This document shows positions 42,894 through 60,327 of a DNA stretch of 60,327 nucleotides, one piece after another. Position 1 is the first letter of the stretch; the number at the start of each line of letters is the position of its first letter. Source of the stretch: Deltaproteobacteria bacterium (GTDB lineage: Bacteria; Desulfobacterota; Binatia; UBA1149; CAITLU01); the NCBI GenBank assembly GCA_016218925.1, contig JACRCR010000072.1, positions 1-60,327 on the forward strand, given 5' to 3'. The notes beneath the pieces are model-generated. The model searched no databases. It was given only the letters and a program-made list of their open reading frames with translations, and was not told where the DNA came from. The position numbers were made by a program, and so were the translations under genes.

Positions 42894-43262
42894 GACCACA
42901 CAACCTACAGGGCTTCGAATCCGGCCTGAAGCGAAGGCGCCCGCGCCGCCGTGCGCTCGGAAAGAGTTGGTCGCGCAAATAGCTGGCTCGAGGGGCGTAC
43001 ACTGCATGCGCGAGTCGTAGCCGACCGCACGTTGTTTGGAGGCTCCGAGCATTCCTCTGTCCTCACGGGTCGGCCTCGGGCGGCTCCCGTGCTTCGCGAA
43101 AACCGCTGTTAACCGAGATCCCCGAAAGTTCGCCTGGTGGAGCGAATGCCGCGCCATTATTCCGCTGCACCCGTTCTCTGGTTAAGGGAACGGATTCGAG
43201 CCGCGACTTGCCGGGCGCGGCTATGCGCTTGTCGAGGCTGCGCCATTGGCGTACCCTGCGTT
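42894..43262. other. Intergenic space between cytochrome and higB genes
   Basis: 369 bases that should hold the leftward cytochrome promoter. The right half is occupied by repeat R1 (43108-43191). Otherwise I see nothing. Confidence 0.5.
43108..43191 (+). repeat. Island repeat R1 (foldable)
   Basis: 84 bases starting GTTAACCGAGATCCCC. It folds into two stems: TTAACCGAGA (43109-43118) with TCTCTGGTTAA (43175-43185), one base bulged, and GGTGGAGCGAAT (43136-43147) with ATTCCGCTGCACC (43159-43171). It is homologous to R2 at 44033-44119 and its left half to R3 at 47202. Unequal spacers between the stems recall, but do not prove, an integron attC site. Confidence 0.6.
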
Positions 43263-46426: not shown

Positions 46427-46699
46427 ATGAAAACCGCCCCCGTCACTGACCTCAAGAACCGTCTGAGCCACTATCTGCGGCTGGTCGCGCGCGGTGAAAG
46501 CGTCACGATCACCGATCACGGTCAGCCCGTAGCCCGCCTGAGCCGGGTGGAGGCCAGTTCGGCCGATACGGCTTCGTTGGTTGCCGCCGGGCTCGCAAGG
46601 GCGCCGCTTGCCCCGCTGCCGCCGGATTTCCTCGAGCGGCCGCTGCCCGTCGGCGACGTCCGGCAGGCGCTTCTCGAGGATCGCGAGGACCGGTTCTGA
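46427..46699 (+). CDS. vapB: Phd/YefM-type antitoxin (VapB role)
   Basis: A 90-residue antitoxin. The N-terminal Phd fold is clear: TAPVTDLKNRLSHYLRLVAR, GESVTITDHGQPVARLSRVE. The C-terminal part, PPDFLERPLPVGDVRQALLE, would wrap the toxin. It stops 2 bases before the PIN-domain gene. Confidence 0.9.
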   Translation: MKTAPVTDLKNRLSHYLRLVARGESVTITDHGQPVARLSRVEASSADTASLVAAGLARAPLAPLPPDFLERPLPVGDVRQALLEDREDRF

Positions 46700-46701
46700 G
46701 C

Positions 46702-47124
46702 ATGCTGTACTGGGATGCTTCGGCGCTGGTTTCGCTCTGCGTGGAGGAGCAGGAGACGGCGCTGCTTCGCCGCTTGGTCGAGGGTGGCATCGTTACCTGG
46801 GCCGTCTCGCGGGTCGAGATTGCTTCCGCCATCGAGCGGCGCAGCCGCGAGGGTCGTCTCGTGCCCGAAGCGCGACTCCGGGCGATTGCGGCACTTGGTG
46901 AACTGGCCGACGCATGGACCGAAATCCAGCCCATTGCGCCGGTGTGCGAACGCGCGCTGCGACTGCTGGCGATCCACCCGCTGCGGGCCGCCGACGCGAT
47001 GCAACTTGCTGCCGCGCTGGTCGCGGTGTCGGATCAGCCGCGCGGCCACGGCTTTGTCTGCACGGACCGGCGGCTTCGCGAGGCGGCTTCGCGCGAAGGA
47101 TTCCGTATCGTTCCGGAGATGTGA
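46702..47124 (+). CDS. vapC: PIN-domain ribonuclease toxin VapC
   Basis: A 140-residue PIN nuclease. Acidic metal ligands: Asp5 in MLYWDASALVSLCVEE, Glu in SRVEIASAIERRS, Asp in LRAADAMQLAAALVAV and Asp in FVCTDRRLREAASRE. VapC toxins cut initiator tRNA or rRNA. Two bases separate it from its antitoxin gene. Repeat R3 begins 77 bases after its stop. Confidence 0.92.
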   Translation: MLYWDASALVSLCVEEQETALLRRLVEGGIVTWAVSRVEIASAIERRSREGRLVPEARLRAIAALGELADAWTEIQPIAPVCERALRLLAIHPLRAADAMQLAAALVAVSDQPRGHGFVCTDRRLREAASREGFRIVPEM

Positions 47125-47681
47125 AGTCGCAGGCGCGCATCCCGTGTGCCTCCCAAGAAGCCCATCCAACCTGTATCAAGCGGATCCTTCTGGAGAACGG
47201 TGTTGAACGAGATCCCCGAAAGTTCGCCTGGGGGAGCGAATGGCTCCGCAGCCGGTCGCTCAGGCGAGCGAGTTTTCAGAGAAAAACAGAGAATCCAAAC
47301 TCGCCGGGACCTGAGAAAGGCTTCGGATTCAGAGTGTTGCGAGACGAGGTCGTTCGCGAGCGAATACTGGGCCCCCATTCTTCGGCTGAACCATCACCGG
47401 TGTGCGGCGGGGGCTCTCTCGCCGCCGCCGATTGGTGCCTTGATCTTGAGAACTTTGATGCGGCGGGCTGTCGCCGAGCGGAAAGCGTCGGGCTTTCGGT
47501 CGAGGCGAGGAGGCGGCAACCAGTCGATAGACGAGCTCGACGATCACCCCCTGGGCAGCACGGCTATTCCCGCCCACCCACTGGTCGAGACGCTCCTCGG
47601 TGACGATTCTGTTGCTCATCAGGTTAGGCGAGTATCTTGACACCGAGCTGTCGACGGCTCGATGGTGCTACTTCGCGGCTG
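47125..47681. other. Intergenic space between vapC and the PIN gene (convergent)
   Basis: 557 bases between convergent genes. Repeat R3 fills 47202-47330. Beyond it the stretch to about 47396 (GGGCCCCCATTCTTCGGCTG) is weakly similar to the right arm of R2 in the same order, so the original element may have been longer. No gene is supported here. Confidence 0.55.
47202..47330 (+). repeat. Island repeat R3 (composite, foldable)
   Basis: The left 41 bases match R1 at 38 positions (GTTGAACGAGATCCCC start). The right 77 bases (47254-47330) match R4 (49896-49972) at 67 positions without gaps. The right part folds: CTCAGG with CCTGAG outside, GCGAGTTT with AAACTCGC inside. R3 thus joins the R1/R2 and R4 families into one. 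Confidence 0.65.
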
Positions 47682-48194
47682 TTACTTTCCCAATAGGTCA
47701 CGAAAGGATGCGAACGCCATCTTGAAGCGTCTCCGTTCGAGAACAGCCTTGTCAGCGTCGGCGCCTTCGATCGAGTGTAGCCCCGCACGAATAGCGAGAA
47801 TGAAGAGATCCGGCGTGCCGATAAGTCGCTCCTTGCCGAGGCGACTCTCGGCTTCGCGCCTGAATCGCTTCCGCTCGTCGGAGGCCAGAATCCAACCGTG
47901 TTCGAGCGCCAGCGCGAGGCAAGCCGCCTCGCCGCGACCGACATGCTCGATCAGTTGAGTGAACAGGGCGATGGAGTCGAGGTTGGTGAGCGACGCGATG
48001 GTTAGCGCGTCGCCTGCGACGGCGGCATCGAGAACTTCGCGCTGCTCGGCGACGGTGATTTCTTCGCGGACATGATCTGGAACTACGAGCCGATATCCGG
48101 GTATCCTCGCAAACATCTCGAGCCGCCCAACGTGGATCACGTTGATCAACACGTTGGCGTCGGTGACGACGATGTGGCGAGGCGGAGTTGTCAC
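47682..48194 (-). CDS. PIN-like nuclease (DUF3368-type toxin)
   Basis: A 170-residue PIN-like protein. Acidic positions: Asp in VVTDANVLINVIHVGRLEMF, Glu in PDHVREEITVAEQ, Glu in HVGRGEAACLALALEHGW and Asp in ILASDERKRFRREAE. Such proteins are usually toxins or RNases. The start overlaps the upstream XRE-ImmA gene by ATGA, so the pair is a likely toxin-antitoxin module: the metalloprotease/regulator first, nuclease second. Confidence 0.85.
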   Translation of the reverse strand: MTTPPRHIVVTDANVLINVIHVGRLEMFARIPGYRLVVPDHVREEITVAEQREVLDAAVAGDALTIASLTNLDSIALFTQLIEHVGRGEAACLALALEHGWILASDERKRFRREAESRLGKERLIGTPDLFILAIRAGLHSIEGADADKAVLERRRFKMAFASFRDLLGK

Positions 48195-49450
48195 TGAGCC
48201 GCGCTCGCACCCACAGGCTCGTCGTCGCCGAGACCGGCTTCATCGACCAACTGATCGACCGCTTCGCCGGGCAGGCCCACCATTCGACCGAGTTCGTCCA
48301 GTTTGCCTCGGGAAATGTCCTCCCGCCGATAAGCTTCCAGTGCGAGGCCGAGGAAGCGATGCTGAAACTCGTTCCGCGTCTCCTCGTGGTCCGGTTCGGA
48401 TAGTCCAAGCAGCTTGGATAGCTGCTTCCCCTTGCCGGCGGTGTCCAACGCTCTGAGACTCTCAAACTCGGCTTCGCTCACGATCCGCAAATTGCGAAGC
48501 CGATAGAGGGCGGTAAGACGGCTCACCTCGAAGCTATGCGCGAGCAGCACAACGTCGTACATCTGGACGGTCTGGCTACCCGCTTCCGTGCGCCCTTCGA
48601 CGTCGACGCTGCCTACCTCGTCGAAAACCTCTGCGTAAACGCGGCTTGCTTTGCCTTTCCCAAGACCGGCGATTACCTGGCGCACGCCGTCTTCCGGCAT
48701 CAGGAAGTTTGCGGCGAATGCGTTGGCGCGGACCTCCAAGAGGTCGTCGCGCTCGGATGCGCGGCTCACTAGGCCGAATCGGTCACGGTCGACCACGACG
48801 TGTGCGTACTCATGGGCGAAGGAGAAACGACGCCGCAGAACGTGATGCGCGCGATTGGCCACTACGAAGAGGCCGATCTTGGCATCACTGAGCGTGAGGC
48901 CGGAGACGTCGTCGGGGAGGTCGACCAGTCCGGTGCGAACTCCCTGGGCTTCCAGCAGGCTCGCGAGATCCGGCAGAGGCGCGCTGCCAAGACCGAGTCG
49001 ACGACGTTCCTCGTCAGCGAGACGTTGCCCCTGCTCGATGGCGTCCCAACGCGTGCGAGGAGTGTGGATCGGGTACGAGGCGACCGCGGTCAGGTCACGA
49101 TCGATACCAAGGATTCGTTCGAGGCTCGTCAGCTCATGTCCAAGCGCGATGCACTGGCGCAGGCTCTCGACGACGCCTGGCTGACCGGCGACGTCACCTT
49201 GCGCCCGGAAGAGCGCAGCGAGCTTGTCTTCCTCCTCGAAGGGTTGTGCGAGGAACTCGCCGATGTTGCGGCCAAAGAGGTGGGCGAGTTTGTCGAGCTC
49301 AAGGCTCGACACCGTGCGGTTACCTGCCTCGATCTGACCGACGGTCGGGCGGGAGAGGTCGAGGCGCGTGGCCACCTCGTCCTGAGTCATACGACAAGCC
49401 TCTCGTGCGGCTCGAATTCTTGCGCCTAACTCCTGTTGGGTAATCGCCAT
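48191..49450 (-). CDS. XRE regulator fused to ImmA/IrrE-family metallopeptidase
   Basis: A 419-residue protein. A GAGG site supports the ATG at 49450 over a GTG at 49462. An XRE helix-turn-helix spans about residues 8-65 (MTQDEVATRLDLSRPTVGQI). The ImmA/IrrE zinc peptidase motif HEYAH lies in RRRFSFAHEYAHVVVDRDRF with the third ligand Glu in LLEVRANAFAANFLMP. The C-terminal 150 residues are helical. Such proteins sense a signal and degrade a regulator, as in phage ICEBs1 or radiation response; here paired with a PIN nuclease. Confidence 0.88.
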   Translation of the reverse strand: MAITQQELGARIRAAREACRMTQDEVATRLDLSRPTVGQIEAGNRTVSSLELDKLAHLFGRNIGEFLAQPFEEEDKLAALFRAQGDVAGQPGVVESLRQCIALGHELTSLERILGIDRDLTAVASYPIHTPRTRWDAIEQGQRLADEERRRLGLGSAPLPDLASLLEAQGVRTGLVDLPDDVSGLTLSDAKIGLFVVANRAHHVLRRRFSFAHEYAHVVVDRDRFGLVSRASERDDLLEVRANAFAANFLMPEDGVRQVIAGLGKGKASRVYAEVFDEVGSVDVEGRTEAGSQTVQMYDVVLLAHSFEVSRLTALYRLRNLRIVSEAEFESLRALDTAGKGKQLSKLLGLSEPDHEETRNEFQHRFLGLALEAYRREDISRGKLDELGRMVGLPGEAVDQLVDEAGLGDDEPVGASAAQ

Positions 49451-50255
49451 GGGTTTCCTCACGTTCGGGTTGCGCGCGTGGCCGAGGTCGCGACGTTCGG
49501 AGAGAGAACAAGAGAGGGCTCTGGGCGCGGGGCGCTACTACGCCGCGCTGGACCCTCTCCGAGGATCGGACTCGTCATGCGGCGAGGTTAGGCTTTCGGG
49601 CGACAGGCGTCAAACGGGGGAGTATGCGTTCGGTTTCTGCCTGGCGATTGCGGGCGGATTCTGGTCCAGGAATGCTCTCCCCAGACCGCCGCTCAGAGAG
49701 CGCGAGAGCACGAAATCGCGCCTCCCGAAACGCGAACGCGCGCGCTCTTGGTTAAGGAACGGAGCCCACATAGCAGCGCGCTCAGCGCGCAAACCCGCGC
49801 GACATCACGCGTATTTCGCGCACGTCGGCGCCGCGCACAGCAGGCGAGGGCGCCGAGAGAGAAAGTTGGTGGTGGAAGAAACTGGCTCCCCGTTCGGTCG
49901 CTCAGGCGAGCGTGTATTCTGAGAAAAACAGAGAGTCCAAACTCGCGAGGGCCTGAGAAAGCCTTTGGTTTCGAGACCCTGGCGCATCGCTCCGTCCGCG
50001 GCTGACGAATGGGGTGCCCAGTCGGTTGCTGCACCGATTCCCAGATCCCAAGAGACCTCGCATCGAGTTCGACCCGGCGCAAGACCACCTCGGATACCTC
50101 CGAGGCGCGGTAAACGTCGCCCGGTCCGCGTTTGCCGCACATGCGGAGGGATGTCGGCGCCGTTCCGACTCTTCGCGGGCTCACAGCCTTCGCGACGAAC
50201 GACGGTAAGCGTGCCGTCGGGCCTGATGTGGTCTTCGGCATACACAGTGGCCAAG
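49451..50255. other. Long repeat-bearing spacer between XRE-ImmA and STAND genes
   Basis: 805 bases with no supported gene. Left third: leftward promoter region of the XRE-ImmA gene. Centre: repeat R4 (49850-49972). The part to 50255 is open in several frames but without family character. A GGTTAAGGAACGG block at 49748 recalls the right end of R1. Confidence 0.55.
49850..49972 (+). repeat. Island repeat R4
   Basis: The first 22 bases are identical to 45786-45807 (R5). Bases 49896-49972 match R3 at 67 of 77 positions without gaps (GGTCGCTCAGGCGAGCG start, GAGAAAAACAGAGA and CCTGAGAAAG blocks). The outer stem CTCAGG/CCTGAG is kept; the inner stem has two mismatches compared with R3. Confidence 0.65.
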
Positions 50256-52769
50256 TCACCGATCGCGAGGAGCGGGCGTCAGGTGGCGGACCGCACCACG
50301 AACGGTGTTGAGGGTGAATTCGAAGTCGAGCCAGTCGAAGCGACCAGAAATGGCCGCAATCTCCGTCGGTCGAAGAAGAACCAAGAGCGGTAGACAGCAA
50401 TACTCGTAGACACCTAGATCTGCCGCGAAGCGGATCACCCGGGCCAATGTATCTGTCGCGCTGCGTCTGTCTCCCGATCGTTCTTGCAGCAGGGCTTTCG
50501 CCTGCAGAGCGAACAAGGCACCGGCTTGGTACCCTGTACGTTCCTGAAGCTTCTCCGCTTCGGTTAGCATTCGAAACGCGTCGGCGACCAAACTACCGTC
50601 AATTGCCAGTGCGACCGCATTTGCGACAAGCGTCTTCCCCACTTCGAGTAGATTGCCAGTGTCCTTATGAATGTCGAGCGCCTTATGCGCGTACTCGATG
50701 GCCTTCGTCGGCGAAGACCACGCCAGCGTCTCGGCTAGGTTGGTGAGGGCTTTCCCGTGCATCGCGTCGCCGCCTACCGACGACGCACTCTTAGCCGCAG
50801 CAAGATATGATTGCTCGGCAAGTCCGAGATGAAAATTCCAACGGAAGATGTGGCCAACAAAGCGAGCTTGCTCCGCATCCCACAAAGGATTCATGGCGTC
50901 GCGCGGCAAAGACTTGAAAGCGTGTTCTGCTTCGCGAAATCTTCCTTGCAAGATGAATACGTCTGCTCGTTGCCGCTGTGCGAGCAGTGATGCCGGTGGC
51001 AAAAGCGTGTTTGGGCCATGTGCCATGCGGGGCAGAGTTGTCAACGCTTCGTACACGGCGAGGGCGCGATCGTAGTTGCCGAGAAGGTGGTCTACGTGCG
51101 CTCTGAAAAACAGGAGATGGTCGCGGTGGCGGCCGATATCGGCGGGGTTCACCTGCGCAAGAAGGGACGCCGCCTCAGCAAGGCGACCGAACTTCCTTGC
51201 GCACACGCCGCGCACTAACGCCGCAGCGGCCTCAAGCTCGGGGACGGCTGGTCGTAGCGCGGCAGCAACGCGTGAGAACGATGTAGACGCCGACGCCCAT
51301 AACCCGGAATCTACAAGATCGAGCCCGATAGCGACGATATCCTCAATCTGCGTGACGTTTGGACGAAGGGCATAACGGGACAAGAGCACAAAGAGTTGAT
51401 CGAAAACCCAGGCAGTGCGTCGGATACCGGGGACGCCGAGCGTCTCGATGCAATGCTGAAGAACAGCATCAAAAAGCATGCGTGCGACCTCAAGTTCGAG
51501 TTCGTCGCCCAAATACGCGCGCACGCTATCGTGAATCTTGTAGATTTGGTCGGACGCGCTTACCACATCCGCATAGGAGAACTCTATGAAGTCACGAAAC
51601 AGGATCGCTGAAAAAGGCAGGTTAAGGGCACGGGTGATGGCGAGGAATAGCTGTCTGTCAAAGCGTTCCAGCGCGGCGCAGATTTCCAAAGCACCTGCAT
51701 GATGAGGCTCGAGGTGAGAGACAAAGCGTTCGATAACCTCGCGTTCCGCAATGCGAAAATCGGCTTCCCGGATGACTTCACCATCGGCCTTCCTTCTAAG
51801 ATATGTAGATGCGCAGAGAGAAAGGAACAGAGGATTTCCGTGAGAGCTATTGACGATTGACGACCGAACGGTGGGTTCACTCACTCCTACCTGTTCCAGA
51901 TAGCGCTCGCTATCCTCAACACCCAGGCCAATGAGCATGTGTTGTTCAAGGGGGATGGCCCATTCCGGATTTACGTCGGCCCACCGGATTCTTTCGCGTC
52001 CGGCCAATACCCAGAGTCCTTGTTCTGCCGTTCCGATAAGGTCACGGAGCCACTCGTCGCCGACGCACTTTGTTGTACGGAATCCCGGGCGATCGACGAT
52101 TGCATCGTGGGTATCCACGAAAACGACTAAGCGGCACGACTGAAGCCGCACCGCATCGTCGATGGCGACGCCAAGATACCCCGGCAATCGGACCAACAAC
52201 TCCTCATTGGACAAAGCGTCGATTTCTTCGAAATCGTGTCGCGAGCGGCCGAGCCGCTTCTCGTAGGCGGCACCCCCTCGATCCCATAGTCGTTTCAGCA
52301 GCCGAGCGGGCGCGATTGCGCCGGCTAGGTCACCGGCGGTTTCCACCAAGTCCAGAAGCAGACTGTCCTCTCGAAGCCGCGAGCGCTTGATATCTTCAAG
52401 GGAACGGCCGGCGAGGGACCAGAAACGGACGAGCGCGTACTCGAAGAGAGATGCTGGGATGGGTAGCTGTTGCCGTATGGCGAAAAGCGCGTCGGGCGGT
52501 GAAGTCAGCTCAGGACCCTCAAGATTGAGAGTTACCGTAGTGAACCGATTCTCTGCAGAGTCCGACTTTACGAGCTGGTCCGCAAGCTGATTGAGTAGCG
52601 CGGTCTTTCCGACGCTTCCGACGCCATAGAAGACCAGTACGCTCAGGGCCGCTATGTGTTGACGATGGTGTTCGGCTTTGCCGTCGAACAGTGCACGGGC
52701 ATCATCGCGGTCCGTGAACACGCGAATCGCGCGCAGCGCCGCGGCGGCTTTCAAGCGAGTCAGGGCCAT
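50256..52769 (-). CDS. STAND-type NTPase with TPR-like C-terminus
   Basis: An 837-residue protein. N-terminal RVFTDRDDARALFDG is followed by the nucleotide-binding domain: Walker A FYGVGSVGKTALLNQL (residues 49-56) and Walker B RLVVFVDTHDAIVD (about 214-219), then a winged-helix-like part (EICAALERFDRQLFLAITRA). The C-terminal half (about 480-800) is repeated helices with TPR character (LGNYDRALAVYEAL, GRFREAEHAFKSL, TKAIEYAHKALDIH). STAND ATPases sense a ligand with their repeats and oligomerise. No effector domain is attached, so the effector would be another protein. The block is more AT-rich than its left neighbours. Confidence 0.87.
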   Translation of the reverse strand: MALTRLKAAAALRAIRVFTDRDDARALFDGKAEHHRQHIAALSVLVFYGVGSVGKTALLNQLADQLVKSDSAENRFTTVTLNLEGPELTSPPDALFAIRQQLPIPASLFEYALVRFWSLAGRSLEDIKRSRLREDSLLLDLVETAGDLAGAIAPARLLKRLWDRGGAAYEKRLGRSRHDFEEIDALSNEELLVRLPGYLGVAIDDAVRLQSCRLVVFVDTHDAIVDRPGFRTTKCVGDEWLRDLIGTAEQGLWVLAGRERIRWADVNPEWAIPLEQHMLIGLGVEDSERYLEQVGVSEPTVRSSIVNSSHGNPLFLSLCASTYLRRKADGEVIREADFRIAEREVIERFVSHLEPHHAGALEICAALERFDRQLFLAITRALNLPFSAILFRDFIEFSYADVVSASDQIYKIHDSVRAYLGDELELEVARMLFDAVLQHCIETLGVPGIRRTAWVFDQLFVLLSRYALRPNVTQIEDIVAIGLDLVDSGLWASASTSFSRVAAALRPAVPELEAAAALVRGVCARKFGRLAEAASLLAQVNPADIGRHRDHLLFFRAHVDHLLGNYDRALAVYEALTTLPRMAHGPNTLLPPASLLAQRQRADVFILQGRFREAEHAFKSLPRDAMNPLWDAEQARFVGHIFRWNFHLGLAEQSYLAAAKSASSVGGDAMHGKALTNLAETLAWSSPTKAIEYAHKALDIHKDTGNLLEVGKTLVANAVALAIDGSLVADAFRMLTEAEKLQERTGYQAGALFALQAKALLQERSGDRRSATDTLARVIRFAADLGVYEYCCLPLLVLLRPTEIAAISGRFDWLDFEFTLNTVRGAVRHLTPAPRDR

Positions 52770-52771
52770 GG

Positions 52772-53743
52772 CTACGTGAGGTGCCAGGTCGCGGCGCTGT
52801 AGAGAAGTTTGTGGAGCGGCAGGGCGAGGTCGAGGTTGTTCTCGCTCCTGGCAAAGCGGCTTTTCAGGTCCGCGTACAAGCCGATATAGTGGTTCACGAG
52901 ACGAGGCCGACCTGTGCCCAGCGCGTGGCTTGCGATCTCTCGGTCTCCCTCACGAATGACAACCGTTTCGGCGCTGTGGTTGAGCAGCACCGACATATGC
53001 GATGCCTCGAAGAACAACTGTGTGGTCTTGCGGTTGAGGCCGAGGGTCCAGTTGGTGTCGATGCTTCCTCGGCCTCGATGTCCGCCGGGCAGACGAATGG
53101 CGACGTCGGCAGCCCCTTGTATCTGCGAACATGGCACAGATGGTATGGAGGTCATCCTGCCCTCGGTTACCTCGAGTTGAGATACATCCCAGAAGCGGGC
53201 CACTAGGCTCAGCGCATTTATTCCGCTGTCGTACCAAGATCCGCCGAGTCCTGTCGCGGCAGATGAGAGCGTTCCGTTGCTGAGATATGGGTCGTAGAAG
53301 CCGCAATGGAAGCCCGACGGGGAGCCCAGGTGAAGATCGCCGGAACGGATGCGCTCGAGCAACCAGAGAGCGTCGAGCGCGAACGCGGCGTGGAACGCCA
53401 CGCTCAGGAAGATCCCCTTAGCCTGAGCGGTTGCCACCAGCTGGTCGAGCTCGGCAGCGCTGGTAGCAGCGGGCTTCTCAAGCAGAACGGGCCGCCCGGC
53501 CTCCAGAACGCGACTTGCTACATCGGCATGGGTAGCGTTGGGAGTCGAAACGATGACAAGATCGGCCCGGCTTTTCCGAAGGAAGGAATCGAGAGACTCG
53601 TGGAATGTGATTCCCGGGAGGAGGCGCGCGCTGCGGTCCGGGTTCCTGTCGCAAGCGTCGACGAGAGTGAGTCCGGGAACGCAAGCGATCGCCTCGATCT
53701 GGTATGCTGCAATTTGTCCGATGCCAACTAGGCCGATGTTCAT
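52772..53743 (-). CDS. Gfo/Idh/MocA-family oxidoreductase
   Basis: A 323-residue NAD(P)-dependent oxidoreductase. Nucleotide fold: NIGLVGIGQIAAYQIEAIAC with acidic VDACDRNPDRSARL; the family motif EKPAAT (VLLEKPAATSAAELDQLV) and a C-terminal dimer domain starting SPSGFHCGFYDPYLSN, with GGSWYDSGINALSL around the substrate site. Enzymes of this kind oxidise sugars, inositols or other polyols. It is 2 bases upstream of the STAND gene, so the two are co-transcribed. Its presence between SIR2 and STAND genes is unusual. Confidence 0.9.
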   Translation of the reverse strand: MNIGLVGIGQIAAYQIEAIACVPGLTLVDACDRNPDRSARLLPGITFHESLDSFLRKSRADLVIVSTPNATHADVASRVLEAGRPVLLEKPAATSAAELDQLVATAQAKGIFLSVAFHAAFALDALWLLERIRSGDLHLGSPSGFHCGFYDPYLSNGTLSSAATGLGGSWYDSGINALSLVARFWDVSQLEVTEGRMTSIPSVPCSQIQGAADVAIRLPGGHRGRGSIDTNWTLGLNRKTTQLFFEASHMSVLLNHSAETVVIREGDREIASHALGTGRPRLVNHYIGLYADLKSRFARSENNLDLALPLHKLLYSAATWHLT

Positions 53744-53997
53744 TTCTCTATCCCGTGGTGTGCCAAGATTCGATCGACGAGGAACGCGAGCTACGCCCCC
53801 GTAGTGTACAAGAATCCAGCCGACCGAAACGCGAGCGATGACGCGACCTTGCTTGCGGCGTTAACAAACAGCTACCGGGTCGACGTGTTGAGTCTTCGTC
53901 ATGACTTGCCCGTTCACGATGGCAATCTGCCGCGCTCTTACGCCACGCGGCCTGCTTGCCGCGGTACAGGTTCGCTCTTGCGGTGTCCCCCGATGGT
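53744..53997. other. Spacer between SIR2 and oxidoreductase genes with a 21-bp inverted repeat
   Basis: 254 bases. TTGCC-N10-GGCAA at 53906-53926 matches 44162-44182 at 20 of 21 positions, with weaker similarity for about 20 bases to its left. A short leftward frame here is open but has no good start or family pattern. The spacer may hold a second promoter for the oxidoreductase-STAND pair. Confidence 0.5.
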
Positions 53998-56076
53998 TCA
54001 GAAATAGTAGTCTCGATCGACGTATTCGTCGACATTCTGGACGCCGAGTTTAGTCATTGCTTCTACGGCCTCTGCGCGTTTCGCAGCGCGAATTTCCGCC
54101 GTGCCGTCTCGGCGATTCGCTTCGAAACGATACTCCGCGACCTTCAACCAGGCTAGGCCTGGGACGCGACTCATAATGGATTCGTCGAGCCGTCGTACCT
54201 CAGCAAGCTGAATCTGAGCCTGTGCGGTATCCCCCAGGTCGCTCAAAATGCAGGCAAGATACCACGATTGCACCGATGCCTCGATCAGATCCTTGCTGAC
54301 CTTGGCCTGCTCGAGAGCAGTTTGCACATGCTCTCTCGCCTTGAACAACAGCGCCTTCCTTTCTTCCGTCGTTTTCGTTGTCGCTACGCGTGCGTACGCC
54401 CTTCCCAGCAAAGAATGGGAGAAATGGTCTCGTTCCGTACGGACCGCAGGGCTGCTCACGAACTCGTGGAGATGTTCGCGGTCCATGTAGCGAAGACGCT
54501 CGCGGTAACTAGACTCTCCCTCTTTGTTGTCGATTTCAGGCTCTGCTTCGATCAGAGCTTCGAGGTCGTCGTATCGGCGAGTCCAGAAATAGACCCAAGC
54601 TTTGGAACGTAGCAACATCAGTTGAAGTTCGCGATCGCCCGACACGAGTGATTGCCCAACGTCCGCTATTGCCAACCACTCGCTCCACATGCCTGCCTGG
54701 CGAAAGTACTCATTGATACGCGCCAGCCGCGACCGACCATTTGCGTCGTTAGGTATAAGCGTTGTCCAGCCTTCGGCGGATAGCAGTAGAAACTCTAGGG
54801 TTCGAACATGCTGATCCAGAAAAGCCTTGTGATACACGCTAAAATATCTAGGCGGGCCTCCGAGAGGCATCGAGTCTAGCTCCCTCGTGAGCCACTGCGC
54901 GACTATCTTGCGGTCTTCGACGGTTACAGAAGTCGCCGCGGTTGCGCCTATCCGACCGCAACCAGCGTCGCAACCGAGACTTCTGTAGTGGGCAGGTGTG
55001 AGATCGATGGAGCAGTCTGTGCACAGCGTCGTAAAGAGGGTCAATTCGACGGGTTCGCGAAACACGGACAATAGACTCAGGGCTTTCTGTTCGTGGGCGG
55101 TTAGAGTCGACGGCGGAGTACCCGAAGCTCTCATGGCCACGCCGCGGGTCGCGATGATACGGGTGATATCTGTTGCAACAGCAGAAGAGTCGACACGATG
55201 TATCAGGCAATAGAGGCTCAGTAGAAAACTGCTTAATTCCGCAAACGCGCCGTCATCGGAGATCGGGATGACTCGGACATTGTAACGGCTGGCGTAGATG
55301 GATATCTCGGCCGGGCAAGTCTCCGCATCGCTGAGCACGCAATACATGGGCGGGCAGTCTGATTGGGCGAGCCGTCGCTCTTCCACGAGTGTACGGAACT
55401 GTCGGTCGCGCAGTGAGTATCCAAAGGTGATGATCCCGAAGCGTGAGAATAGAGACGCGATCAAGCGGTAATGTCGGGGGTCGCGTTCGAGATCGGCGTA
55501 GTCACTTGCCCGAAGTACGATTTCGTGCGGGTCCTTGTCGACAGAACCGTGGATCTTGAGTATGCGGCGTGCTCCGTCTTCAGCCCAAGCGCTTGCCTGC
55601 CACGCCTCATGATGCGTAAGCACTACTGGCTTGTGCCAGTCGAATAGCGACACGTACTGTTCGATCAAGGTGTCGAAATTGGTGGTTAGGAACATCTGGA
55701 ACGGCAGCAGTGCGAGTAGGCTGTGATTGAATGAAAAGGGCGTAGAAGGATGGGCTCCGAAGACGTCTCGGAGGACGGCAAAGTACTTGTCAGGGCCCAT
55801 TCCATGGATGACCTCGGCCGCCCACTCGGGCTGGGCATCCGAGATGTGTCTTAACCACTGGGAATTTCTCGGGTCCGGGCTGTACATTGTTGCGGCGACG
55901 CGCTCACAGATTATTGAAATGAGGCGCGACCAGGACGGCAGTCCAAGCGGCATAGATAAGCCGGAACCGACGAAAGCAACTACTTGTCGGCGCCGAAGGC
56001 GTTCGATGAGGTCCAAGGGGATCGCCGCTTCCTTGGCGAGCAGCAGAGGCGTGGGAACAATGGTTGCGGCGTTCAT
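53998..56076 (-). CDS. SIR2-family protein with helical repeat C-terminus
   Basis: A 692-residue protein. Residues about 20-270 form a SIR2-like NAD-binding domain: VAFVGSGLSMPLGLPSW (Gly37-Ser41), FLTTNFDTLIEQ (Asn133, Asp135) and RILKIHGSVDKDP (His176), then FGIITFGYSLRDRQF. Asn and His are the residues needed for NAD hydrolysis in SIR2 defence proteins. The remaining 400 residues are helical, with TPR-like features near the C-terminus (LLGRAYARVATTKTTEERKA). SIR2 proteins deplete NAD to stop phage growth. Transcribed toward the oxidoreductase and STAND genes. No ribosome-binding site is obvious. Confidence 0.88.
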   Translation of the reverse strand: MNAATIVPTPLLLAKEAAIPLDLIERLRRRQVVAFVGSGLSMPLGLPSWSRLISIICERVAATMYSPDPRNSQWLRHISDAQPEWAAEVIHGMGPDKYFAVLRDVFGAHPSTPFSFNHSLLALLPFQMFLTTNFDTLIEQYVSLFDWHKPVVLTHHEAWQASAWAEDGARRILKIHGSVDKDPHEIVLRASDYADLERDPRHYRLIASLFSRFGIITFGYSLRDRQFRTLVEERRLAQSDCPPMYCVLSDAETCPAEISIYASRYNVRVIPISDDGAFAELSSFLLSLYCLIHRVDSSAVATDITRIIATRGVAMRASGTPPSTLTAHEQKALSLLSVFREPVELTLFTTLCTDCSIDLTPAHYRSLGCDAGCGRIGATAATSVTVEDRKIVAQWLTRELDSMPLGGPPRYFSVYHKAFLDQHVRTLEFLLLSAEGWTTLIPNDANGRSRLARINEYFRQAGMWSEWLAIADVGQSLVSGDRELQLMLLRSKAWVYFWTRRYDDLEALIEAEPEIDNKEGESSYRERLRYMDREHLHEFVSSPAVRTERDHFSHSLLGRAYARVATTKTTEERKALLFKAREHVQTALEQAKVSKDLIEASVQSWYLACILSDLGDTAQAQIQLAEVRRLDESIMSRVPGLAWLKVAEYRFEANRRDGTAEIRAAKRAEAVEAMTKLGVQNVDEYVDRDYYF

Positions 56077-56277: not shown

Positions 56278-59200
56278 TTAGGGAGCAACCGCCGGCAGTG
56301 GCGACGCGGCATCGGGGACAGCTCCTCCTACCGTGAGCAGTAACTCGCGATCACCTTGGCGCCGGGAGATCGTGAGGTTCACGCTGATGGGTTGGTTCGG
56401 GCTGACACTGATCGTGGCGTCGAACTCGCAGTCGCGTGGATAGACTTGCTCGCCAACCAGCCGGTCTGCTCGGCAGCGTCCCTGAATCTGGGCTATGCCC
56501 GGGCCAAGGTAGCTATACCGGCTGACGTAAATGGCGTCGTAACCCCAGAGCCCGTCGTCATTCGTGACTTCAAAGCGCATGCCGGTGAGGGCTCGAGGAC
56601 ACGCCCCGCGCGTACACTCGTAGGATCCGGTCGCACGGAGTAACTGCCCGCCGTTGGCGGACACGCCGGAGAAACCACCCAGCACGATCTTGATGTCCTC
56701 TGGAGCGACCTCCGTGGCCGATTCGTCGTCGCGGCTGGCGCAGACGGTGGATGGGAGTCGTCGGGGCTTCGGCTCGAGTTCGAGGCGGCATACCGTACTC
56801 GCCGCGCAATGACCGCCATCGCCGCACTGTACGTCTACGAGACAACCGGCACCGAGAGCGAGGCCGTCACTGCAGAAACCGCCGGTCCTTGGCAGACCAA
56901 GATAGACGGCTGCGCGGCGGAGCCGACGAAAACCTTTCGTGACGACTAGACTCGACTGTCCTGCGCCACCCACCGTTGAAAGATCCAGGTGAGGACTGAC
57001 GGGGGCCCGAAGCTCAATCGCATCAATGGCCACGCGCGAGTAGCTGCTGTTCGGGATCTTCTGGACGATGTCACCGGCACGAAGGCCGGTGTCGTTACCG
57101 AGGTCGTCTGTCGCCACCAGACCGTCGATTCCACGAGAGGCTACTGTCCAGCTGCGCCGGGCGGTAACTTTGGCTTTGGCGCGTACGGCGGCGTTCGGCG
57201 AGACAGTTCGGGAATCCGTGATCGCCGCGGATTGCTGCGCAGGGGCCGTGCCCGTCAGAGCCTGACAGACAAGCGCCTGACTTCCCGGGACGCAATCATA
57301 GTTCAGGATGGCGAGGATAGTGCGGCGCACGTCCCAGCGCAGCATCATGTGGCCGTGATCGAGGTTGTCCGCGTCGCTGTGCGAGGCCAGGGCCCAGCGA
57401 TAGACGTTTGCCGCATTGAGCGACGGCCATTTCGCGCTTACGTAAGGAACGGTTCCGTCGCCCGACTGGCCTGGCTCTACGCTCACGTAGTATCGGCTAG
57501 ATGCGTTCCGGCACTCGGCGGAGTAGCCGTCGATGGCCTCGCAGCCGGCGGCCGTGTATTCCCCGGCGTACGGCGCCGGTGGTGCTGTGCTGCGGATCCG
57601 AGTCTTGGAAGGCGTTGGACGATCCACAACGTAGATCAGGTGCAAGGGAATCTCGGCGGGCGGCGTCCAGTTGTCCCAAGCGTCATGGCGCGTCAAAGCC
57701 CATTGTTGGTAGTGCGTGTTGAACTGACTGATTTCGTCAAAGTAGTACCAGGTAGAGTAGCCATTCCTGGAGGGACCGAGCCGGACGCCGTAAGGGAGCA
57801 ACGAATCGGTGAACGTTTGCCAGAAGCGGGTTGCGTCGTAGCTGCCGGCTCCGCCCGGTCCGCTGTATAGACCGCGATACGCTGCCAGCGGGCCGTAGTC
57901 CGTCTGCACGTCGAGGAAGACCCCGGGATAGGCGGGGGAAGGCATCAGTGCGTAACCCGCGGGCCCGTTGTCGGCGAAGCGCTTGATGTAGTTCGCGGTG
58001 ATCCCGACTGGGCCGAAACCTAAGCCGGCGTCTCCCGTGAGAAGGACGTACGGTGCCTGCGGAGCGCCAAGATGCGGCGTGCCGACCATTATCACTTTGC
58101 CGATGCGGCTGACTATGCCCGGACCGCGGCGGCGCAGGTATTCCTTGATCACCAAGCCGCCCATGCTGTGGCCGATGAGGTCGATCTTCGGCGGCGGGCT
58201 CTGCTGACAGTAGCTGGGCGCGGTTGCGGGGGGCTGGCAGCTACCGTTGCACACTTTGCAGTCGAGGTCGGTGAATACCTTGGCATCATCGTCACTTCCG
58301 CCGAGATCAAGGCGCCAGTCGTAGGGAAGCGTTTGATAGTACCCCTGCGGCCAATTGGCCTCCACAAACTTCGAAAATCCGTCGTAGACGGACTTGGACG
58401 GGATGTTGCAGACAGTGTCCAGGATCGGCCCCGCGTGCACAGGAACGATCTGCTGCCCGTAATCGTCGAGCCGCAATTGATCGGCGTCCGCTAGGAAGGA
58501 ATCGGCGAAGCCGCAGACCGGCCACAGTCGTCTATCGTCAGAGGAACGGTGAAGTTCACTGCCGTAGATGCCGGGCACGAACACGACCGGTGGCTGCGCG
58601 TCCAACCCTGGGGTAGGCGTACACGCCGAGGATGGAAGTGTGTAGGTCTTGGTGTTTGGGTGATAGAACACCTTCTTCGGATTGCACTGGTAGCGCGCCG
58701 TGATTTGGACCGCGAGAGCGGCCGCTGGCACCTTCACCTTGGCGTTCCACGCACTCCATGTACCCCAGCCTGCGCCCTGGCGTTCACGATAGGAGTAAAG
58801 CACGGCTTGACCTGCCACATTCGTGGCAGCGCCCGTTACGGAGATCTCCACGTTGCAATCCGCGTCGGGGATCTGTGCTATGCCGATCGTGAAAGTTGGA
58901 TAGACGAGCGGACAGGAAGCCGGTTGAGAGACAATCGACAGGTTCACTCCGGATCGGAAGGTTCGGCCGTCAGCGCGAGTCACATTGTAGTCGACCCGAT
59001 AGTCGCCGGCCGCGAGCTGCTGCGTCCACGTGTTGGCGGCGGTAAGAAAGGTTCCGTTGAGCAGCCACTCGCCGCTTTCGGAGGCAAGGCGCTGGACGCC
59101 GCGGACAGCTTGGGTGGCAGGGGCAGTCGCAGTTCCCGTGAGCTGTGTCCTTTGTTTGTCATCGGGGACCAGTAGGACCACGGAGTTCTCGGCGGGGTTG

Positions 59201-60327
59201 TTGTACGCAGCGGTGGCGACCGGCTGGTTGTTCTCGTCCTTCAGCGTGAACGCGATTCCGGACAGACTTCCGTCGCATCCCGCGTCGTCTTGGTCGATGA
59301 ACCCGTCGCCGTCGTTGTCGAGTCCGTCAGCACAATCGGCTGGGGTCGTCTCGGTATCGCAGGCGTCGCCGATCCCATCGCCGTCGCTGTCGGTTTGGTC
59401 GGGGTTGTAGATCTCAGGGCAGTTATCGAGGCAGCCGGTCCGTCGGCCGGACTGGCATTTGGCGCAGGTTCCGGATGTTACTATTTCATCTACACCGTCG
59501 GAGTCGTTGTCGACCGATGTGGTGCACGAGTTAGTGGAGTCGCACACCGGTACTACGAGCGGACTGTTGCCCCAACACTCCACACTGCCGTTGCCGCGGA
59601 GGCCGCACGTGTGCTCATAGGTGGCGCAGATTTTTGTAAAGGCGCCTGAGGGTGGCCTCTCCCATCCCAAAAGCCGGCCCCAGCACTCGAAACTGCCGTC
59701 GCTGCGGATCCCGCAGGTGTGATACCACCCGGCGGAGATGTCGCTGAAGGCGCCTGCGGGCGGCGACGCCTGCCCGTAAGAGTTGTCGCCCCAACACTCG
59801 ACGCTACCGCTGCTGCGGATCCCGCAGATGTGTTGCCGCCCGGAGGAGATGTCGCTAAAGGCGCCTGCGGGTGGCGACGCCTGCCCGTAAGAGTTGTCGC
59901 CCCAACACTCGACGCTACCGCCGCTGCGGATCCCGCAGATCTGATACCACGCGGTGGAGATGTCGCTAAAGGCGCCTGCGGGTGGCGACGCCTGCCCGAA
60001 AGGGTTTTCGCCCCAACACTCGACACTGCCGTCGCTGCGGATTCCGCAGGTGTGGTTGAGGCTGGCGGAGATGTCGCTCACGGCTCCTGAGGGCGGCCAC
60101 TCCCACCCCAAAAGCCGGCCCCAACACTCGACACTGCCGTCGCTGCGGATTCCGCAGGCGTAATGAGCACCAGCGGCGATGGAGCTGAAGGCTCCTGAGG
60201 ATGGCGACGCCTCCCCGGAAGAGTTGTCGCCCCAACACTCGACGCTGCCGCCGCTGCGGATACCGCAGGTGTGATCAGCGCCAGCGGAGATGACGCTCAA
60301 GGCTCCTGCGGGTGGCGACGCATGCCC
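56278..60327 (-). CDS. Giant RCC1-repeat / thrombospondin type 3 / lipase protein (5' end outside window)
   Basis: The frame is open from the window's right edge; at least 1349 residues are encoded, so the true start is not here. Seven RCC1-like 37-residue repeats (HTCGIRSDGSVECWG) come first, then calcium-binding DxDxDG repeats (NDSDGVDE, DSDGDGIGDACD, DNDGDGFIDQDD). A beta-rich region follows, then an alpha/beta-hydrolase of the LCAT/lipase type: VVFVPGIYGSELHRSSD, nucleophile Ser in DLIGHSMGGLVIKEYL, Asp in SGDGTVPYVSAKW and His in LDHGHMM. The last 250 residues are beta-rich. Likely a surface-bound or secreted lipase. Confidence 0.86.
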   Translation of the reverse strand, partial: GHASPPAGALSVISAGADHTCGIRSGGSVECWGDNSSGEASPSSGAFSSIAAGAHYACGIRSDGSVECWGRLLGWEWPPSGAVSDISASLNHTCGIRSDGSVECWGENPFGQASPPAGAFSDISTAWYQICGIRSGGSVECWGDNSYGQASPPAGAFSDISSGRQHICGIRSSGSVECWGDNSYGQASPPAGAFSDISAGWYHTCGIRSDGSFECWGRLLGWERPPSGAFTKICATYEHTCGLRGNGSVECWGNSPLVVPVCDSTNSCTTSVDNDSDGVDEIVTSGTCAKCQSGRRTGCLDNCPEIYNPDQTDSDGDGIGDACDTETTPADCADGLDNDGDGFIDQDDAGCDGSLSGIAFTLKDENNQPVATAAYNNPAENSVVLLVPDDKQRTQLTGTATAPATQAVRGVQRLASESGEWLLNGTFLTAANTWTQQLAAGDYRVDYNVTRADGRTFRSGVNLSIVSQPASCPLVYPTFTIGIAQIPDADCNVEISVTGAATNVAGQAVLYSYRERQGAGWGTWSAWNAKVKVPAAALAVQITARYQCNPKKVFYHPNTKTYTLPSSACTPTPGLDAQPPVVFVPGIYGSELHRSSDDRRLWPVCGFADSFLADADQLRLDDYGQQIVPVHAGPILDTVCNIPSKSVYDGFSKFVEANWPQGYYQTLPYDWRLDLGGSDDDAKVFTDLDCKVCNGSCQPPATAPSYCQQSPPPKIDLIGHSMGGLVIKEYLRRRGPGIVSRIGKVIMVGTPHLGAPQAPYVLLTGDAGLGFGPVGITANYIKRFADNGPAGYALMPSPAYPGVFLDVQTDYGPLAAYRGLYSGPGGAGSYDATRFWQTFTDSLLPYGVRLGPSRNGYSTWYYFDEISQFNTHYQQWALTRHDAWDNWTPPAEIPLHLIYVVDRPTPSKTRIRSTAPPAPYAGEYTAAGCEAIDGYSAECRNASSRYYVSVEPGQSGDGTVPYVSAKWPSLNAANVYRWALASHSDADNLDHGHMMLRWDVRRTILAILNYDCVPGSQALVCQALTGTAPAQQSAAITDSRTVSPNAAVRAKAKVTARRSWTVASRGIDGLVATDDLGNDTGLRAGDIVQKIPNSSYSRVAIDAIELRAPVSPHLDLSTVGGAGQSSLVVTKGFRRLRRAAVYLGLPRTGGFCSDGLALGAGCLVDVQCGDGGHCAASTVCRLELEPKPRRLPSTVCASRDDESATEVAPEDIKIVLGGFSGVSANGGQLLRATGSYECTRGACPRALTGMRFEVTNDDGLWGYDAIYVSRYSYLGPGIAQIQGRCRADRLVGEQVYPRDCEFDATISVSPNQPISVNLTISRRQGDRELLLTVGGAVPDAASPLPAVAP
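59560..60327. repeat. In-frame 111-bp tandem repeats (RCC1-like units)
   Basis: Seven units of about 111 bp encode the 37-residue motif with CGIRSxGSVECWG. The units at about 59730-60060 are nearly identical at the DNA level (CCCAACACTCGACGCTACCG blocks), showing recent expansion. The array continues beyond the window edge. Confidence 0.85.

Follow-up and report, generated by a model that had tools for sequence, protein, structure and literature searches.

The DNA analysed here (the window, 60,327 nucleotides) is the entire contig of a 4.66-Mb draft genome and carries three consecutive genes that are all read leftward on the minus strand, namely a SIR2 protein of 692 aa (53998-56076), a Gfo/Idh dehydrogenase of 323 aa downstream of it (52772-53743), which is the presumed effector or target, and a STAND-type ATPase of 837 aa with a TPR region (50256-52769), the presumed sensor and switch. 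Coordinates, order and direction of the three genes are those given by the initial annotation, and the open reading frame, the strand and the two catalytic residues of the SIR2 protein were likewise confirmed. Between the Gfo/Idh stop and the STAND start lie 2 bp (junction 52767-52774, minus strand), and between the SIR2 and Gfo/Idh genes 254 bp (53744-53997, minus strand). This longer gap holds no convincing gene and no terminator-like or promoter-like match on the minus strand, and a small ORF spanning it (53748-54035) was rejected for its non-coding-looking composition and its overlap with the SIR2 gene.

As had been noticed before, the three-gene block is richer in AT than the left half of the window (GC of 0.56-0.60 versus about 0.68). 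Compared inside the window, the GC3 values of the SIR2, Gfo/Idh and STAND genes are 0.63, 0.71 and 0.62, respectively, versus 0.85-0.87 in the mutS2, permease, aminotransferase and adhesin genes, a contrast that is real, yet not absolute, because the left-hand DUF1566 gene (0.58) and the gene to the right of the block (0.74) are exceptions. Overall, the block is acquired-looking. The toxin-antitoxin neighbourhood described earlier also stands, with a Phd/YefM antitoxin and PIN toxin pair on the plus strand (46427-47124) and, on the minus strand (47682-49462), an Xre-ImmA/IrrE regulator (48191-49462) together with a PIN-like toxin (47682-48194). The Xre-ImmA and PIN genes are flanked on both sides by a dispersed repeat roughly 99 nt long (47232-47330 and 49874-49972, 82% identical), and shorter related copies occur at 43104, 45786, 47198 and 49850. 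Adjoining the SIR2 gene, 56278-60300 encodes a large protein that joins RCC1 repeats to a lipase-like LCAT domain, in a frame that is open past the contig end.

The initial annotation had linked all three genes, and the part of this claim that stood is the linkage of the STAND ATPase with the metabolic dehydrogenase, which recurs at nine archaeal loci, while SIR2 as a third member did not. A scan of 84,980 species, made with a small STAND alignment and just two short peptide patterns, found whole-length STAND relatives in three Thermoplasmata MAGs (28-29% identity, E ~1e-100 to 1e-103), each with a Gfo/Idh relative immediately upstream (E ~1e-42), and in a profile search 8 out of 117 genomes of one Thermoplasmatota order were positive, giving nine loci, with two copies on separate contigs (L061 and L062) in genome G675. 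The L061 contig also holds a gene that resembles an IS256-type transposase by eye. In all nine archaeal loci the Gfo/Idh gene lies directly upstream of a full-length STAND relative in the same order, and the two reading frames share 8-25 bp, where the archaeal start codons are our own assignment and are non-ATG in L033 and a few others. Such near-touching or overlapping genes are arranged as in translational coupling. Furthermore, pairwise identities of the two proteins run in step across the ten loci (r = 0.956, permutation p = 1e-4; 0.972 for the archaea alone), although part of this in-step divergence is species history, because all nine archaeal loci belong to a single order. Together, the sequence comparisons indicate that Gfo/Idh and STAND almost certainly form a conserved two-gene unit.

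In the STAND protein the ATPase core is followed by a TPR superhelix that reaches the C-terminus (TPR_12, E 2.1e-8). The core shows a Walker A motif GVGSVGKT (residues 49-56), a Walker B motif FVDTHD (217-222) and an invariant RE (258-259), and both Walker motifs are kept in ten out of ten STAND proteins of the pair loci, as are other motifs. A Pfam search of seven STAND relatives returned TPR_12 in every one, together with weak matches to nSTAND6, NB-ARC and AAA_16; three to four of the seven matched NB-ARC/nSTAND profiles at E < 0.01 (best 0.0005-0.0009), a threshold at which the window protein itself gave no match. The same database gave no N-terminal effector domain and no DNA-binding domain in the STAND protein, in which NTPase and TPR parts alone were found. 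Its structure model is confident for the TPR part and poor for the ATPase part.

The dehydrogenase (GFO_IDH_MocA, E 3e-22) matches its archaeal counterparts over nearly the full length (E 1e-30 to 1e-45), as against a best value of 2e-17, mostly over the Rossmann part, for sampled Gfo/Idh proteins of its own phylum. In a tree the cassette enzymes, i.e., those encoded beside a STAND gene, group together (92/95), and their neighbours are the L-arabinose/D-galactose 1-dehydrogenases (87/95), to whose aldose 1-dehydrogenase clade they form a sister group outside the clade itself; the tree is small (26 rows, seven of them cassette enzymes, with three found later left out), its supports are moderate and its branches long. 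The structure model has the Gfo/Idh fold at moderate confidence (mean pLDDT of 61.5) and does not separate the subfamily. Although the archaeal enzymes are merely 25-30% identical to that of the window, K90, H118, D172 and N176 are invariant in ten out of ten cassette dehydrogenases (the window and nine archaeal), as is D32, the residue that ends the second strand. An Asp that ends the second strand of a Rossmann enzyme predicts the use of NAD(H), and NAD(H) is therefore the predicted cofactor of the cassette enzymes. The four other residues align with K91, H119, D169 and N173 of the Azospirillum L-arabinose 1-dehydrogenase, which contact the sugar, and of which changes at N173 lowered activity about a thousandfold and H119N stayed active (PMC9795676). 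Judged from these residues, the active site of the cassette enzymes appears aldose-1-dehydrogenase-like, and aldose oxidation is the reaction we infer for them.

Outside the archaea, the window is the single bacterial example of the pair known from the scan of 84,980 species with its two short peptide patterns, and the window's own genome alone was positive among 297 genomes of its phylum and among 148 of its class. Three further bacterial phyla, with 154 genomes each, gave no cassette at E 1e-40 in a search run without a positive control, and plasmid and phage records did not contain the pair at the sensitivity of the searches. Viral contigs gave no match in a STAND alignment scan, nor in single-protein peptide-pattern scans for STAND and SIR2, the latter null results arising because the patterns picked were not conserved ones. 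On the Priestia plasmid pBM-Cp-1-5 a Gfo/Idh and a SIR2 gene lie about 3 kb apart, which we treat as chance, because in the tree this Gfo/Idh sits on a very long branch outside the cassette clade and a repair gene stands between the two. The distribution of the pair is rare and scattered.

The genomic context of the pair might give a hint to its role. On a 1.86-Mb archaeal contig (L060) it has on one side genes for a Csa3-like CARF protein, a second CARF-type protein, a Mokosh-like helicase and a PLD nuclease, and on the other side candidate matches to PDC-S27 and PDC-M11A; this is the sole clear defence island among the pair loci, with PDC-S01 and PDC-S27 taken as weak defence indicators. Weaker candidate defence neighbours occur at two loci (L073 and L074), and at others (L031 and L032/L075) the pair sits among housekeeping genes. 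The only families recurring among the 78 other neighbouring ORFs were one gene kept in synteny by two closely related archaea and a regulator of the ImmA/IrrE type common to the window and L074. Distant STAND relatives were found beside other kinds of genes. In Actinomadura rifamycini (L039:7809-11397) the relative overlaps an APH-family phosphotransferase gene by 14 bp and both sit between DrmA and DrmMI of a DISARM-like locus, possibly another pair of a STAND protein with a metabolic enzyme. On a Priestia megaterium plasmid (L004:4619-8952), in a region that also contains R-M and Dpt genes, a STAND-TPR relative is preceded at a distance of 32 bp by a gene annotated as HEPN, for which Pfam gave no HEPN match at E 0.001. 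Because of the island at L060 and the HEPN and APH/Drm neighbours of the distant relatives, a role of the Gfo/Idh-STAND pair in defence or conflict is favoured, though unproven, and we consider it somewhat probable.

NLR-type immunity is built around STAND ATPases, and most of the effectors known for them cleave nucleic acids, destroy NAD+ or disrupt membranes. The reading that we moderately favour is that the pair consists of a sensor ATPase and a sugar dehydrogenase repurposed under its control, probably for defence against viruses or stress, where both the function and the direction of control are inferred. The TPR region would sense a ligand linked to infection or stress, and an ATP-driven STAND assembly would then bind the dehydrogenase and switch it on (or release it). 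With NAD+ the dehydrogenase might oxidise an aldose or the anomeric sugar of a nucleotide, and the resulting drain of NAD+ or of a key sugar metabolite could stall the infection. That the dehydrogenase is the effector of the pair is an even call, and the full proposal, that archaea and bacteria share an immune or stress module whose effector, an NAD-dependent sugar dehydrogenase, is switched on by a STAND sensor, is put forward tentatively.

A non-defence role has to be weighed against this, in which the pair is a mobile metabolic trait and the STAND protein regulates a sugar dehydrogenase through signalling or in the manner of a chaperone. Here the absence of any recurring sugar catabolism gene beside the pair among the 78 neighbouring ORFs, the lack of a DNA-binding domain in the Pfam search of the STAND protein, the scattered distribution and the island at L060 outweigh the position of the Gfo/Idh next to the aldose 1-dehydrogenases in the tree, its kept active site and the several archaeal copies among housekeeping genes, and we regard such a metabolic trait as rather unlikely. 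The roles within the pair might also be reversed, with the cleft of the Gfo/Idh protein sensing either a sugar nucleotide or the NAD(H) state and the response being executed by the STAND protein. Rossmann proteins can act as NAD(H) sensors, which supports this assignment, and the conserved active-site residues would be equally needed for binding such a ligand; however, nothing recognisable as an effector domain accompanies the NTPase and TPR parts of the STAND protein, and reversed roles are improbable.

The remaining gene encodes a SIR2 domain (Pfam SIR2_2, E 3.3e-21) with the catalytic Asn and His of SIR2 NADase defence effectors, N133 lying within TTNFD and H176 within KIHGS, both intact in the window protein and invariant across 14 aligned SIR2 proteins. 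Over the SIR2 part it matches the PADLOC models LmuA (E 2.5e-21) and ThsA (E 3.8e-17), and its PDB matches are ThsA, DSR2 and KomC. The whole-length Dsr2 model, whose cut-off is 1400 bits, scored 20.4 bits, and none of the neighbouring proteins scanned with Pfam matched TIR, i.e., no ThsB partner as in Thoeris. The C-terminal region of about 400 aa (53998-55218, minus strand) showed no convincing or recognised relative in the searches made and is perhaps a new sensor region. A possible STAND-like region in this C-terminus found no support (hhalign probability of 0.07%, just TPR_12 at E 0.095 and no solved relative).

No SIR2 relative was seen in the flanks of the nine archaeal loci (tblastn, 1e-3), which is firm for the longer contigs only, because those of L033, L061, L072 and L073 are short. 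In addition, none of 21 viral contigs with SIR2 relatives had a Gfo/Idh or STAND relative alongside. SIR2-STAND fusions of the Avs5 type are known, and therefore some support exists for a single three-gene defence system, as proposed in the initial annotation, in which the STAND sensor would activate the SIR2 NADase. Although Avs5 systems are members of the STAND superfamily (PMC12931631) and the three genes are consecutive, on one strand and of similar GC3, the trio was not found together elsewhere in the collections searched, neither at the archaeal nor at the viral SIR2 loci, and the 254-bp gap before Gfo/Idh contrasts with the 2 bp or overlap within the pair, which makes such a system very improbable. 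The SIR2 protein is in all likelihood separate from the Gfo/Idh-STAND unit, and it is probably an independent NADase, which may have been brought into the same island as the pair as a separate NADase-type defence gene.

In conclusion, the pair points to a possible defence module that puts a metabolic enzyme to an unexpected use. The initial annotation did not recognise the three-gene combination, and the linkage of a STAND ATPase with a metabolic dehydrogenase is not among the PADLOC models; a Gfo/Idh-STAND system is described neither there nor in the open-access papers searched (subscription journals and preprints being outside the scope), and we know of no defence system described with a Gfo/Idh-family redox enzyme as effector. 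If true, coupling to a sugar dehydrogenase with intact catalytic residues would suggest that immune ATPases recruit ordinary metabolic enzymes, and the overlap with an APH-type kinase gene in Actinomadura hints at a wider pairing of STAND proteins with such enzymes.

Compared with known systems, the SIR2 protein shares with the SIR2 defence NADases (ThsA, DSR1/DSR2, KomC and LmuA) the SIR2 domain with N133 and H176, whereas its C-terminal part matches none of them. The STAND protein resembles the Avs and bacterial NLR-type STAND ATPases, including Avs5, in its STAND NTPase, its helical-repeat C-terminal sensor and its linked, presumed effector, but differs in that the partner is a separate Gfo/Idh gene and that no Avs model of PADLOC matched at E 0.1. 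With the archaeal STAND-TPR structure 6mfv, which was among the Foldseek matches of the partly unreliable STAND model and was thus found through its fold, it has in common a STAND core followed by a TPR superhelix, while no dehydrogenase partner is named in the title of that entry. The cassette dehydrogenase is similar to the L-arabinose/D-galactose 1-dehydrogenases (6jnj, 7cgq and 4ew6) over most of its length and shares their catalytic K, H, D and N, yet it is set apart from them by the invariant D32 in place of the S or R of the aligned arabinose enzymes, by the additional conserved residues D151, Y153, H256 and H285, and by the location of its genes outside sugar operons.
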